DNA of 64,000 bases, taken from NCBI GenBank assembly GCA_028277445.1, contig JANQGG010000005.1, positions 62,001 through 126,000 of the forward strand, written 5' to 3'. The position numbers were made by a program, and so were the translations under genes. Origin of the DNA: Chloroherpetonaceae bacterium (GTDB lineage: Bacteria; Bacteroidota; Chlorobiia; Chlorobiales; Chloroherpetonaceae). Below the pieces are notes generated by a model. That model ran no database searches and had not been told where the DNA came from. It saw only the letters and a program-made list of their open reading frames with translations. Below, in pieces: positions 50,972 to 60,689 of the stretch (positions within the stretch are counted from its first letter, which is position 1; every line of letters begins with the position of its first letter).

Positions 50972-53413
50972 TTACTTGATCAGAACCATTTTTTGTGTTT
51001 TGACTCGATTAAGTGAATGCAATCGATAAATGTAAGTTCCTGATGATAAATGCCTGGCATCAAAATTAATCGTATGGTTTCCAGGCTGCACTTCTTCATT
51101 GACTAGGGTTTTAACTAAACGACCAAGCAGATCATATACATCTAATCTGACATGAGAAACCTTATCCAGAGAAAAAGGAATCTGAGTTGTCGGGTTAAAG
51201 GGATTTGGGTAGTTCTGATTCAGTTTATACGAATATACATTTTTCTGTGTTTCTTTTTCAGAAATATCATTAAGATTTATGGTTACACTAAACTCATAAT
51301 CATGTATCTCGCCGGAATAATCGACACTTCTAATTCTGTATTCGTAAGTATTGCCTTCATAGGCATTGTAATCGGTAAAGGTGTAATCATTTTGTGAAGT
51401 GGCTGTGCCATTACCTTTAAGTTGATGGTTGTAGTTATAATGAGCCAATTCTTTACCATCTCTTAGCACGATAAATCCTTCATTGTCCGTTTCAGAAGAC
51501 GTCGACCAATTCAGTTTAACGCCATGCTGAACTTTTGCTGCGTTAAAGCTTAAAAGACTTACCGGTAAAATGTAATCTTGGGAAGGATCGTAGATTGCCC
51601 ATACGCCGGCATTGGTAACGCCATCATAGGTTATGGTATTGTTTAGCGTATCAAGTTCTCCGCCAATTTCAACCCAATTGTAACCATCGTTAAACATTAA
51701 AGTTAGATTTTTCTCTTTAATTGCATCTGACTTGATATCAGACTCATCGTAGGGCAGCACAACTTTGGCCTGAAAATTATTGTCTTCTACTTCAATATTG
51801 TAATAACGATGCAGTACTTTTTCTGTCTGCACGTTCGAAGGCAAGCTATTGGCAATAGATTGAATTGCAACTTCGCTGGATTGATCGATTTGAGAAAAGT
51901 TAATTTGACCCAATTCATTTTGTGTGCCCGAAACAAAATTAACCGGTTCATTCTGACTTGGATTCTCTATCAATGTTTTTAAGATTGCGCCTTCTTCCAA
52001 TATCAAGTTTGCACCCGGCTGCACATACAACTTCGATGAACCCATGAAAGTAATTGTATTGCCGCTTGAAACAGTCAAAGTATTACCCTGCGTTAAATAA
52101 ACATCGCCAGTTACCATCAAATCCTGCTCCCAGAATGTATCTTGGGTAATACCATCTTTGGCTTGCGCAATTGTGGTAAATGGATCGCCGATAACGGTTT
52201 GCACCCATCCCAAATATGGAATGCTCATGTAAGCTGCTTCCACCAATGAATATCCCATGGCATAAGCGGTAAAAAATATGGATGTTCTTGCAATACTTCC
52301 CGAATAAGGCTCTTGAACATTGGCAATACCTCCGGTTCCACCCATGCCAATAAAATCGGCCAGCAAACCTTGATTTTTAGCTTCGCGTTGATTAAATGTC
52401 CAACCGTTGAAACTTTCAGCCGTATTGAACACTGCGCCTTTTGCATATGAAAAGTTTAACTGGTTTATCACATAATCCTGAGGCAAACCGGCATGAATTC
52501 CATGAGAAGAATATCCCATAATATTTTCTGCATGGGTGGTTACATGCTGGCTGTTAGTATTAAACTCTGTTTGGAAGTTTTTGTTTGTTAAATACAGATT
52601 GGCGCCTTTTAAATCCAAATAGCGATTGTATGAGTCTTTATCATCCAAAACAAACAGATGCGATCCACTTTTATCAGGTGAACATCCGTTATCAATCGCT
52701 TGCTTGATAATTTCAAAGTTGTTAGGATATACCCCTCCATCCAAGCGAGAAACCAAATAACTCAAATGAAATCTCCCGTTGCTAAAATGGTTGCTTTTAA
52801 AACGGTAGTCAAATGTGTAGTTCATATCCGTAGCGTAATATGCATTAAACTGCGTCCGGTAGTGCGTGCCATATAAATCCATGAAATCTTGAAATAATAA
52901 ACACAGTAACGCATCTACGGCTGCATTGTAATGATATTGATCGCTATATGATCCGGTAGCATTCAGGGTTTGTGGAATACCTCTGACAACAACGATAAAC
53001 CGTGCTTTATTTCTTAATTTCTCACCATCAATTGTTCTTGAATCCATTTCATTCATAAGAGGCGTTTCAATGTACTTCTCATAAAATTTCCAAATCGATT
53101 TGTTGTTTGCCGGTCCTGAAATCTGGCCAGTTCGACTATCATATGTAGCTCCGTATTCAGAAGTATTATCCGGAAGATCAATTCCAATGACATTGCTTGA
53201 AGGGATGTTTCTTTTTTCGATGTAGTAATTTTTAACAGAATCCGATATGGCTAATGCTGTGTTATATACGACAACCACTTCTTGTGGTGTTACCGAAGAT
53301 AGAAATGTTTGCGTTCGGTTCCAGGGTATAGGGTTGTCGTAAGCTGGCTTTCCATAACTATTGCATATCATTGTAAATACCAGCGCGATACATATACTTA
53401 CGACTTTTTTCAT
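50972..53413 (-). CDS. TIGR03790-like secreted protein with T9SS sorting domain
   Basis: 813 residues from the methionine at 53413, with a signal peptide ending near N-S-Y-G-K-P-A. The N-terminal half carries the TIGR03790 pattern: V-V-V-Y-N, S-V-K-N-Y-Y, R-N-I-P-S-S-N-V-I-G and V-V-R-G-I-P. A beta-rich middle with a fibronectin-like segment (L-P-V-S-L-L-S-F-N-A) follows. The last ~85 residues are a T9SS sorting domain with N-Y-P-N-P-F-N-P-T-T and L-S-S-G-T-Y-I-Y-R. Exported through T9SS to the surface or medium. The biochemical role of TIGR03790 proteins is unknown; a peptidase C25 relation is possible. Confidence 0.8.
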   Translation of the reverse strand: MKKVVSICIALVFTMICNSYGKPAYDNPIPWNRTQTFLSSVTPQEVVVVYNTALAISDSVKNYYIEKRNIPSSNVIGIDLPDNTSEYGATYDSRTGQISGPANNKSIWKFYEKYIETPLMNEMDSRTIDGEKLRNKARFIVVVRGIPQTLNATGSYSDQYHYNAAVDALLCLLFQDFMDLYGTHYRTQFNAYYATDMNYTFDYRFKSNHFSNGRFHLSYLVSRLDGGVYPNNFEIIKQAIDNGCSPDKSGSHLFVLDDKDSYNRYLDLKGANLYLTNKNFQTEFNTNSQHVTTHAENIMGYSSHGIHAGLPQDYVINQLNFSYAKGAVFNTAESFNGWTFNQREAKNQGLLADFIGMGGTGGIANVQEPYSGSIARTSIFFTAYAMGYSLVEAAYMSIPYLGWVQTVIGDPFTTIAQAKDGITQDTFWEQDLMVTGDVYLTQGNTLTVSSGNTITFMGSSKLYVQPGANLILEEGAILKTLIENPSQNEPVNFVSGTQNELGQINFSQIDQSSEVAIQSIANSLPSNVQTEKVLHRYYNIEVEDNNFQAKVVLPYDESDIKSDAIKEKNLTLMFNDGYNWVEIGGELDTLNNTITYDGVTNAGVWAIYDPSQDYILPVSLLSFNAAKVQHGVKLNWSTSSETDNEGFIVLRDGKELAHYNYNHQLKGNGTATSQNDYTFTDYNAYEGNTYEYRIRSVDYSGEIHDYEFSVTINLNDISEKETQKNVYSYKLNQNYPNPFNPTTQIPFSLDKVSHVRLDVYDLLGRLVKTLVNEEVQPGNHTINFDARHLSSGTYIYRLHSLNRVKTQKMVLIK

Positions 53414-53443
53414 GACTAATGTTTTAATTATTCTTGTATCCAA

Positions 53444-57261: not shown

Positions 57262-58479
57262 ATGACTGAAACAGCGGAATATACTGCTATAAAAATCCTC
57301 CTAATCGATGACGATCAGGAAATTTGTTCCATCTGCAAAGATATTCTTGATGAAGAAGGCTACGAGGTTGATACTGTTGCTAATGGCGAAGATGCCATTA
57401 AACTGTTTCAACAAAATCCATATGATATCATTTTCATCGATATTTTTCTACCCGATATTGAAGGTTTTGATGTTCTGAAATACATTAAGTCCAATAGCGA
57501 CGTCCCGGAAATCGTTTTGTTTTCCGGATTCGGCAACATGGAACTCGTGATCAGAGCCATGCGAGAAGGCGCATCGGACTTTTTAAACAAACCATTTAAT
57601 AAAGCCGAATTTCTTAAAGCGGTTAAAAATGCCGAATCACGCTTTTTTAGAAAATCAAATCAAAATAAATCAGACGCTAGCTCAACAAAATCAAGAGCTT
57701 GTGTTACAGATCAAAAAAACCCAACCATAGAAATTTGTGCGTTTGGCAATCTTCTATTGAAAGTAACCGATAGGAAAATCACTGTTTCGGATTGGCCAAG
57801 CCATAAAACCAGCTCTGTTTTCAGATTGCTTCTGATTAACCATAAGTCTTCAATCCTTATCGATACATTTATTGACAAGCTATGGCCCGATGCCCAACGA
57901 CGGAGTGCAGAAGTCATGCTATACTCTGCAATTTCAACCATTCGTTATTTTCTTGAACCGGATTTAAAACATGCTCGTGATTCCAAATACCTTAAAACTG
58001 TAGAAAAAGGTTACGAACTTAATTTGGGTGAGTTTGGAAATGACTATTATTACGATGTTGAAGATTTTGAATACTTTTATAATTCGGCAATTGAAGGGCT
58101 TGATCCCATTACAAACTTTGCCAATGCAATTTCCGTTTATAAAGCAGACTTATTTCTCAATGAGCTTTATGAAGATTGGACGTTTTATCCCCGTCAAAAA
58201 TTAAAAGATGAGTACTTGCATGCCTTACAATCTTTATCCATTCATCAATTGGAAAGCAACAACATTCAAGCGTCCATTAACTACTCCCGGATGATTTTAG
58301 AAGCAGACAACACTTCAATCAAAGGATACGAGTTATTAATTGACGCTTATCTGAAATCAAATCGCATAAGTGAAGCTTACCGCGTCTATCAAAAATGCAA
58401 AGATTTTTTTGAAAAGGAATTCAACCTGCCATTTCCTGAAGAACTATCTAAAAAGTTTACCCAACGAAAAGATAATTGA
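57262..58479 (+). CDS. Response regulator with wHTH and BTAD output
   Basis: 405 residues: receiver domain (1-~130) with Asp60, then a winged-helix Trans_reg_C domain (about 155-250, I-C-A-F-G-N-L-L-L start and Y-L-K-T-V-E-K-G-Y-E-L wing), then the helical BTAD domain (about 260-400). Receiver plus SARP-like BTAD in one chain is an unusual output arrangement. The kinase is not adjacent. A near-palindrome after the gene (58573-58590) could be its target. Confidence 0.85.
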   Translation: MTETAEYTAIKILLIDDDQEICSICKDILDEEGYEVDTVANGEDAIKLFQQNPYDIIFIDIFLPDIEGFDVLKYIKSNSDVPEIVLFSGFGNMELVIRAMREGASDFLNKPFNKAEFLKAVKNAESRFFRKSNQNKSDASSTKSRACVTDQKNPTIEICAFGNLLLKVTDRKITVSDWPSHKTSSVFRLLLINHKSSILIDTFIDKLWPDAQRRSAEVMLYSAISTIRYFLEPDLKHARDSKYLKTVEKGYELNLGEFGNDYYYDVEDFEYFYNSAIEGLDPITNFANAISVYKADLFLNELYEDWTFYPRQKLKDEYLHALQSLSIHQLESNNIQASINYSRMILEADNTSIKGYELLIDAYLKSNRISEAYRVYQKCKDFFEKEFNLPFPEELSKKFTQRKDN

Positions 58480-58616: not shown

Positions 58617-60143
58617 ATGAAAAAACTTTTTCTTACCAGTTTATTTGGGCTTGTATTCTTTCTGATGTCCAATATCAATTTTAACCAGAGTTCTTCATGT
58701 TCTGCAAGCTCACCAATGGATGCCTACACGTCAAAATCTGGTTTAAAGGTTTCCTCAATTTTTTCAAGGGTTTCGGACCAAACGTCAAGCCTAATTAAGC
58801 ATGGATTTATTTCAGGCGCTCAAGCAAAGCCATCAAAAGAATATTCTTCATCATCCTATAATTCATCATCAGGTTCAGATAAGGACGATTTGGTTTTTAC
58901 ATTTAAGGGTCATTCTGCCAGTGTATCAACAATGTGTTTCAGCCACGATGGTAAAATGCTTGCCAGTGGCGGTTGGGATAACTCTGTTAAAGTTTGGGAT
59001 GTTCAAAGCAAAAAATTGATCTTTGATTTAAATGCACATACCGGCGGTATTACATCATTAGCCTTTCACCCAAAGCGCCATCTCTTAGCCAGCACAAGCT
59101 TAGATAGCAGTATTCGAATTTGGGAGATTAAAAATGAAATGATGAATGTTAATAACATCGATGCTTCTCAAAACAACTATTATGCATCTACCACTTCCAA
59201 GTCTGGCTCATTGAATGCTAACAATTATAAAATTTTTCCAGTCTTAACTATCAATCAAGCCCACAAAAACTGGATAAATACAATTGCTTTTAGCCCTAAT
59301 GGACGGTATATCGCTTCAGGTGGTTGGGATAATAATGTTAAAATTTGGGACGCACAAACCGGTAAATGCGTCAAAACCTTCAAAGGCCATAATTCAGCCA
59401 TTTTGGATGTTGCCTTTGCTAAAGATGGTAAAACGTTAATTAGCAGCAGTAAAGACGAAACCATTAAATTCTGGTCGATTGCTCATGGTACGGTTATTCA
59501 TCAAATTACCGGTCACTCAGGATGGATCATGTCAATTGGATTAAATGTCAATGGCAGCATTTTGGCCAGTGGCGGTTCTGATGAGACGATCAGTCTTTGG
59601 GATCTTGCTGCTAAACAAGACACTGCATTGGAATTAAGACGCTTTCTTGGTCATAAAGACTATGTACGCTCGCTAACTTTTTCTCCAAATGGCGACATTT
59701 TAGCCAGTGGTGGGGACGACAACAAGCTTAAGTTTTGGAATTTAAAAACCGGTAAAGAAATCTACGAAATTGAAGGTCATACAAGCTGGGTTCGCAGCGT
59801 TGCTTATAACCCTTCAGGTAATTTGATTGCATCAGCCGGGGATGATATGATGATTAACCTTTGGAAAGCCGATAAAGCTGTAGAATTGATGAAACAAAAT
59901 GCGGCAATAGTTAAAAAGAAGACCGTATCAAAAGCTAAAAAGATTGCTTACCGTCGCAAGGCATTAATCAAACGAAAATGCAACAGATGCCATACATACC
60001 GCGCAGTTGAGTCGAAATTCACGCCAAGAAATATTACTTCGGTTGTTGAACGAATGAGGAAATATCCAAACTCGGGTTTCACTAAAAAAGAGTCGCGTGA
60101 AATCATTCGCTATCTTAAAACTACAATCAAAAGTAGATATTAA
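58617..60143 (+). CDS. Exported WD40 beta-propeller fused to a c-type cytochrome domain
   Basis: 508 residues. An N-terminal signal peptide (M-K-K-L-F-L-T ... F-F-L-M-S) and a Ser-rich linker to ~95 are followed by about seven WD40 repeats (~97-430), each with G-H ... W-D/W-N type endings. The C-terminal ~75 residues start with basic K-K-K-T-V-S-K and contain a heme c motif C-N-R-C-H at 455-459. Met480 (V-E-R-M-R-K) is a possible distal ligand, in a sequence like other single-heme domains ending in I-I-R-Y-L. The protein should sit in the periplasm, with the propeller as a binding platform and the heme for electron transfer. Followed by a strong terminator. Confidence 0.82.
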   Translation: MKKLFLTSLFGLVFFLMSNINFNQSSSCSASSPMDAYTSKSGLKVSSIFSRVSDQTSSLIKHGFISGAQAKPSKEYSSSSYNSSSGSDKDDLVFTFKGHSASVSTMCFSHDGKMLASGGWDNSVKVWDVQSKKLIFDLNAHTGGITSLAFHPKRHLLASTSLDSSIRIWEIKNEMMNVNNIDASQNNYYASTTSKSGSLNANNYKIFPVLTINQAHKNWINTIAFSPNGRYIASGGWDNNVKIWDAQTGKCVKTFKGHNSAILDVAFAKDGKTLISSSKDETIKFWSIAHGTVIHQITGHSGWIMSIGLNVNGSILASGGSDETISLWDLAAKQDTALELRRFLGHKDYVRSLTFSPNGDILASGGDDNKLKFWNLKTGKEIYEIEGHTSWVRSVAYNPSGNLIASAGDDMMINLWKADKAVELMKQNAAIVKKKTVSKAKKIAYRRKALIKRKCNRCHTYRAVESKFTPRNITSVVERMRKYPNSGFTKKESREIIRYLKTTIKSRY

Positions 60144-60162
60144 TACCAAAGTGCAATTAACA

Positions 60163-60204
60163 AAAAAAGCCATCTCATGATTTAATATTTGAGATGGCTT
60201 TTTT
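60163..60204 (+). terminator. Intrinsic terminator of the WD40-cytochrome gene
   Basis: 15-bp perfect stem AAAAAAGCCATCTCA (60163-60177) with TGAGATGGCTTTTTT (60190-60204), loop of 12 nt. T-tail on the plus strand. Confidence 0.85.
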
Positions 60205-60235
60205 GCTTTTGGAGATAAAACGTTCATTATAACGC

Positions 60236-60308: not shown

Positions 60309-60689
60309 TTATTTAAAAAACCTGTCTAACGACATGATTTGCCCGTCAAATTCAATCGAAAGGTCTTCCGTATTTGGATTGATAAATATTGGCATTTCTC
60401 TGACCGTGCATCTTACACCTCGATCATCAAAATCTGTAACATAGCGTTCTTCATTTGATTTAACGGCGCCTTCAACATCAACGGCAATGTTTGGGTTGGT
60501 TGTTAACACAAACAAATTAATTTCTTTACTCTTTATTAAATCAAGAATCTGGTTGGTGTTGGTTAGCTGTCCGTAACCACCAGCTGAAGAAATGGTTAAT
60601 TTAAGCTGCCCAAGTTCATCACGCTCAGTATTGGTAATAAAATATTTATCAACCTTATGAACGGCGTTTCCTGTTCTCCATATCGACAT
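60309..60689 (-). CDS. Hypothetical protein, between WD40 gene and dnaK
   Basis: 126 residues, soluble and beta-rich by pattern, no signal peptide and no family that I recognise. Features include S-S-A-G-G-Y-G-Q-L and the terminal F-D-G-Q-I-M-S-L-D-R-F-F-K. Framed by its own terminator and 90 bp from the dnaK terminator. Confidence 0.55.
   Translation of the reverse strand: MSIWRTGNAVHKVDKYFITNTERDELGQLKLTISSAGGYGQLTNTNQILDLIKSKEINLFVLTTNPNIAVDVEGAVKSNEERYVTDFDDRGVRCTVREMPIFINPNTEDLSIEFDGQIMSLDRFFK

Follow-up and report, generated by a model that had tools for sequence, protein, structure and literature searches.

The gene at 58617..60143 on the plus strand of the window (the whole stretch of 64,000 nucleotides analysed here) runs from an ATG start and encodes a 508 aa protein in which a seven-bladed WD40 propeller is joined to a C-terminal domain that is, judging from its sequence, of the P840 reaction-centre cytochrome c-551/cz (PscC) type. 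The pairing of WD40 and cytochrome c domains is already known, from Verrucomicrobia, whilst its form here, with a heme domain of the PscC type, appears to be new; a photosynthetic-type heme module is here joined to a WD40 scaffold outside the groups in which we found such a pairing reported. We put at roughly 40% the probability that the protein is an exported two-module electron carrier, composed of a propeller scaffold and a PscC-type heme, which relays electrons in the periplasmic photosynthetic chain. The anatomy is solid and its reach modest, at two genomes; the pairing of the two modules suggests a small, lineage-specific addition to the electron-transfer chain.

Modules of the protein

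An earlier note on this DNA had described a WD40 propeller of about seven repeats with a signal peptide, a CxxCH motif near the end and a candidate Met ligand, and had proposed modelling the fold, searching genomes for the architecture and inspecting the neighbouring genes. From the N to the C terminus, and all on the plus strand, the protein consists of a hydrophobic N-terminus, a linker, the propeller and a domain with a CNRCH motif and a distal methionine. Seven stretches are matched by PF00400 (WD40; E 5.5e-81, 264 bits), and a full-length AlphaFold model, built with a two-row alignment (A2) of the window protein and its one orthologue, has 28 strands in residues 92-417 (58890..59867), which make seven blades of four; both the series of G-beta repeats and the closed propeller of a WD40 protein are found. 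The propeller, CxxCH motif and candidate Met described earlier are therefore confirmed by the profile matches, the 28-strand model, CNRCH at residues 455-459 and M480. Confidence in the model is high for the propeller, with ten-residue mean pLDDT mostly 84-96 and lower values in a loop near 171-203 and near 331-340, and the linker and heme tail are uncertain. The loop between blades 2 and 3 (residues 174-203; 59136..59225) is variable and poorly conserved, with pLDDT below 50 at residues 176-201, as is the low-complexity, Ser/Asn-rich linker (residues 21-91; 58677..58889), pLDDT being below 50 for residues 1-87. The top Foldseek match to the propeller is 5yzv_B (E 3.6e-30, TM 0.95 on the target); this thermostable prokaryotic WD40 domain from Thermomonospora is the closest solved propeller, and its title mentions no heme part.

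The N-terminus carries KK and then a hydrophobic stretch at residues 4-18, where the 12-residue mean hydropathy is 2.39; residues 1-20 (58617..58676) are presumed, from hydropathy alone, to be the core of a signal peptide. Past residue 40, no 12-residue mean exceeds 1.17 and no 19-residue window averages more than 0.88. In the orthologue the corresponding stretch is less hydrophobic, with a 12-residue mean of 2.02 at residue 5, and the top 19-residue window of that protein falls inside the propeller and not at the N-terminus. Of the signal peptide described in the earlier note, the KK and the hydrophobic stretch can be seen, but no cleavage site or lipobox was evident by eye. Since a hydrophobic N-terminal stretch occurs together with CxxCH, the protein is probably exported and periplasmic. 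Another WD40 protein of the same genome (L002, G000:C16:68218-68853) has a signal-like N-terminus without CxxCH, hence exported propellers may not be rare in this genome. Elsewhere in the window, a large protein encoded on the minus strand (50972-53443) has a Por secretion C-terminal sorting domain (PF18962), which suggests the presence of a type IX secretion system.

The predicted heme c attachment motif, CNRCH (residues 455-459; 59979..59993), has its two cysteines and histidine invariant in alignment A1. The presumed distal ligand, M480 (60054..60056), is invariant in both A1 (nine rows) and A3 (18 rows), and aligns with M182, the sole methionine after the heme motif in the 206 aa PscC of another genome (G102). 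Only 0.0013 CxxCH motifs would be expected by chance from the composition of the protein, and this is the sole open frame of more than 100 residues in the 64 kb that contains C-x(2-4)-C-H. The orthologue (L060:1468-3012), found in the other genome of the family (G005), is 53% identical over residues 6-506; the sequences KRKCNRCHT and VERMR are identical between the two proteins, and whilst the window protein has five cysteines and the G005 protein three, the only ones in common are the two of the heme motif. Loss of CxxCH from orthologues, which the earlier note had held would count against its reading, is not seen: CNRCH is kept in both members of this pair, the G005 protein being the one other orthologue found. 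Heme would hence be covalently attached at CNRCH with His-Met ligation, the distal ligand being assigned through the alignment of M480 with an invariant methionine.

Affinity of the heme domain with PscC

The heme domain (residues 436-508; 59922..60140) matches PF10643, the profile of P840 reaction-centre cytochrome c-551 (PscC), at E 4.5e-7 and 30.1 bits, above the cut-off of 27.1; in genome searches the window protein (28.2 bits) and its orthologue (27.4 bits) clear the same cut-off by a thin margin. The match spans profile positions 153-213 of 216, which is the heme part only. Matches above the cut-off occur in 46 of 198 genomes of the phylum, none of those listed being outside the order, and in none of 14 control genomes, whilst four genomes outside the order with matches at E <=0.01 reach at most 17.3 bits. 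The only matches among PDB sequences at E <=1 are PscC chains, namely 3a9f (E 0.0012) and 7uea chain C (E 0.0068). Modelled by itself, from related heme domains aligned in 18 rows, the domain gives a confident four-helix structure (pLDDT 89.4), for which 3a9f comes first by fold (Foldseek E 0.027, probability 1.00), although that alignment contained PscC rows and the fold result is hence not independent of the sequence result. VIA-align placed the model on 3a9f with Z 9.3 (rmsd 2.6, 66 aligned), whilst the heme subunit of a sulfite dehydrogenase came second (Z 6.6) and helical chains of unrelated proteins scored around 5; as Z below about 13 for helical models may reflect merely a common arrangement, this is moderate evidence.

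The domain shares with PscC the CxxCHT sequence, the invariant methionine, a P-x-S motif and four helices. Unlike PscC, however, the protein has no N-terminal membrane helices, the propeller occupying their place, and a stretch of 5-6 residues between the heme motif and the methionine is missing. The mono-heme cytochrome proposed in the earlier note thus survives as a CNRCH/Met domain, but it appears to be of the PscC type, in a phototroph, rather than a generic one.

Pairwise local alignments of the domain with 45 other heme domains gave scores of 207 for the orthologue and 140 for a fragment from G148, followed by 73-114 for PscC of the Chlorobiaceae type; the PscC of G005 scored 97 and that of the window genome itself 73 (z 14.1). 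PscC-like domains of another family of the order (f3) scored 46-63, and second PscC domains 26-31. Six of seven heme frames from outside the order fell at 27-34, whilst the seventh, a 104-residue frame from G004, reached 76 (z 11.3), a raw score above that of the genome's own PscC; hence this type of heme fold is not exclusive to PscC. A first tree of heme domains (46 rows) joined the second PscC heme domains to the WD40 rows (support 43/97, branch 3.73), and a second, of 42 rows, dropped both of these along with G004 and G176. Against an outgroup of five rows, the WD40 rows group with PscC at a support of 100/100, but AU tests on the second tree rejected neither their placement in the outgroup (p 0.353) nor their placement beside the PscC of G148 (p 0.354); with too few columns, the trees fail to settle the source of the domain.

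The net charge of the domain is +18 over 69 residues, as against +8 in the orthologue and +1 to +6 in four PscC domains; on shorter windows the orthologue has +6 and the PscC-like domains of G148 and family f3 have +6 to +7. So basic a domain would suit an acidic docking face, but in the orthologue the charge is not distinctive. In excerpts of PMC10968294, Lys168 and Arg181 of PscC are reported at the P840 docking face; PMC9529944 does not mention these docking residues by name. The counterpart of Arg181 is R479, beside the methionine and kept in both orthologues, whilst Lys168, which lies beside a gap, has no firm counterpart, the residue being R471 in the window protein and Glu in G005. As the genuine PscC proteins of both genomes lack the arginine, the argument from this residue is a weak one.

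Comparable arrangements exist in other groups. According to the available portions of PMC5615132, WD40 is among the domains of proteins with planctomycete-type cytochrome c (PSCyt) domains in Verrucomicrobia and their relatives, so that WD40 and c-type heme occur in one protein there too; the contrast that the earlier note had drawn with mostly cytoplasmic WD40 scaffolds does not make this architecture unique. PSCyt1-3 are, however, other families of heme domain, in different phyla. No PSCyt family is among the six Pfam matches of our heme domain at E <=10, a search in which HMMER filters drop most weak matches; we take PF07635 to be PSCyt1. The alpha subunit of quinohemoprotein amine dehydrogenase (PF09098, TIGR03908) likewise has a heme c domain with similar motif spacing. 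The complete enzyme there also includes a propeller, and its modules are arranged in another order than those described here. TIGR03908 scores 22.6 bits, far under its cut-off of 274.35, and only model positions 7-71 of 510, its N-terminal heme portion, are aligned.

Distribution and other cytochromes

The only other genome of the family in the sample, G005, is a single contig of 3,293,456 bases in which the orthologous gene lies at C1:3240173. The search of genomes for the architecture used the last blade and heme domain at E <=1e-8 against 98 genomes of the order that were at least 50% complete. Ten matched, two of them (the window genome, G000, and G005) from blade to heme and eight in the heme part only; seven of these eight are in frames about as long as those of PscC (226-251 aa), and the last is a fragment at a contig edge in G148. 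The fusion is therefore present in two of 98 genomes, both in one family (two of two there), at a threshold that a more diverged copy could escape. When genome contigs were searched with the whole protein, one locus was returned, a WD40 region in Poribacteria whose inspected frames contain no CxxCH. After the G148 fragment (L037) comes a protein that looks similar, by eye, to the GHL10 gene succeeding PscC in the window genome, so that this fragment probably represents the end of PscC in G148.

The idea that the WD40-heme protein stands in for a lost PscC was considered and discarded: both genomes of the family keep a separate, genuine PscC above the PF10643 cut-off, on contig C31 of the window genome (L091) and at C1:2218057 of G005 (L092). 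The WD40-heme protein is therefore an addition and not a replacement. The PscC frames of these two genomes (L091:3563-4576, and a 360 aa frame in L092) have a second, C-terminal heme domain of the cbb3 type (CAMCH), whilst the Chlorobiaceae-like frames L100 and L101 stop after a single heme domain. A wholesale replacement of the soluble cytochromes can likewise be set aside, as PF00034 finds further class I cytochromes in both genomes. It matches eight stretches in the window genome and five in G005; some are inside PscC or long multi-domain frames, the others being in frames of 123-164 aa and 133-186 aa, respectively.

Further PscC-related proteins were observed in the order. On the minus strand of G005 (L094, C1:3170503-3170913), a 212 aa frame encodes a small protein in which a pair of PscC-type heme domains stand in tandem, the spacing in the first being CxxxCH; no counterpart was seen in the window genome at E <=0.1. 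The PscC-like proteins of family f3 (L096-L099, L102-L104) are frames of 337-386 aa that contain a long insert and whose heme domain (CxxCHS) is divergent; their PF10643 matches fall under the cut-off.

Possible roles and gene neighbourhood

In the reading that we favour, the propeller would act as a docking scaffold fixing the protein to a partner, whilst the C-terminal domain would carry one electron through its His-Met heme, on the periplasmic side, from quinol:cytochrome c reductase or sulfide oxidation towards PscC and P840. Historically, a PscC-type heme domain is likely to have been copied, without the membrane helices of PscC, onto a secreted propeller in the Chloroherpeton-like family. 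Export, heme attachment, electron transfer and this history are what the modules lead us to infer; the partner and the direction of electron flow are a guess. Electron transfer is the best reading of the two roles offered in the earlier note, sensing having little specific support, and the location 'at a periplasmic complex' is putative. Donation to P840 itself is a possibility, and a more specific arrangement we consider rather unlikely, namely that a soluble PscC-like heme, held by the propeller on the periplasmic face, gives Chloroherpeton-like green sulfur bacteria an extra donor to their type I reaction centre, working in parallel or in series with the two-heme PscC; we did not find it described for green sulfur bacteria.

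In Chlorobaculum tepidum, from which electron supply to P840 in green sulfur bacteria is mainly known, two PscC subunits with mobile heme domains supply P840, the quinol oxidoreductase and sulfur oxidation being the sources of the electrons, according to the portions of PMC10968294 and PMC11108878 available. No WD40-heme protein in green sulfur bacteria was evident in the titles and abstract openings of open-licence PMC articles among the matches listed; the main text of PMC9318685 mentions none of WD40, WD-40, cytochrome, PscC or P840, and PMC9342728 does not mention WD40. The protein offers a concrete test of extra docked donors to type I reaction centres in a family apart from the well-studied Chlorobiaceae.

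The same protein might instead serve respiration, sulfide or peroxide chemistry, or another periplasmic redox enzyme, the PscC-type domain having merely been at hand. This we regard as doubtful, though the role of the protein may be minor or unrelated to photosynthesis since both genomes have other class I cytochromes, which make it probable that the chain is branched. Around the G005 orthologue (L095), inspection by eye, supplemented by Pfam for two of the neighbours, revealed nothing recognisable as a reaction-centre gene, and similar small heme domains occur outside phototrophs (PF09098, E 9e-4; TIGR03908; the G004 frame). Against this, the top matches by family, by PDB sequence and by fold are all PscC.

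The heme might also report redox state or a gas, the propeller signalling to a membrane partner and the upstream regulator belonging to the same circuit. A response regulator with a BTAD domain (57262..58479, plus strand; PF00072, PF03704) ends 137 bases upstream of the gene, and in G005 a 47% identical relative likewise lies upstream of the orthologue, separated from it by two genes, one of the MerR type by Pfam and the other a reversed gene resembling, by eye, a sugar-nucleotide reductase. However, the invariant methionine would fit a six-coordinate electron-transfer heme better than an open ligand site, and no adjoining kinase gene was recognised among the open reading frames listed. Relatives of the regulator at E <=1e-40 are found in at least eight of 61 genomes of the order (the best 30 candidates being scored in many), none in the Chlorobiaceae-like family f2, and six of those genomes lack the fusion. 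The link between the regulator, a loosely linked candidate, and the gene is thus suggestive at most, and a sensor appears unlikely.

A little less probable again is a role in assembling or attaching the photosynthetic apparatus, in which the PscC-like domain holds a place or receives heme and electron transfer is incidental. WD40 propellers are typically scaffolds, and a PscC-type domain could compete for, or mimic, the site of PscC, but the fully kept heme motif and methionine would be needless in a pure scaffold. Most WD40 proteins are cytoplasmic, and the merely moderate hydrophobicity of the G005 N-terminus and the lack of an evident cleavage site would fit a cytoplasmic scaffold with CxxCH as a chance or metal-binding motif, but conservation of the motif, the methionine and the whole domain, the hydrophobic N-terminus of both orthologues and the low chance expectation make this very improbable.

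Among the neighbours, which the earlier note had proposed inspecting, the regulator lies upstream here and has a relative upstream in G005, and adjacency to pscD is absent in G005. In the window, pscD, encoding a reaction-centre subunit (60309..60689, minus strand; PF10657, E 1.8e-36), is the convergent downstream neighbour; it was found in 37 of 148 genomes of the phylum, all being the window genome or others of its family or order, so that the window comes from a green sulfur bacterium, broadly defined. In G005 pscD is at C1:1482340, beside a dnaK-like frame and far from the WD40-heme gene. A functional link to pscD was accordingly rejected, the genes being convergent here and apart in G005, and their adjacency is probably a coincidence; comparing the window with G005, no conserved operon was seen around the WD40-heme gene. 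The window pscD itself adjoins a dnaK-like gene (by eye), an arrangement kept in G005 (L010). Promoter and terminator scans gave results at or below chance. The interval separating the WD40-heme gene from pscD contains an inverted repeat flanked by A and T (60162-60205), noticed by eye; it is likely to be a shared two-way terminator, its loop being longer than the terminator scan allows.
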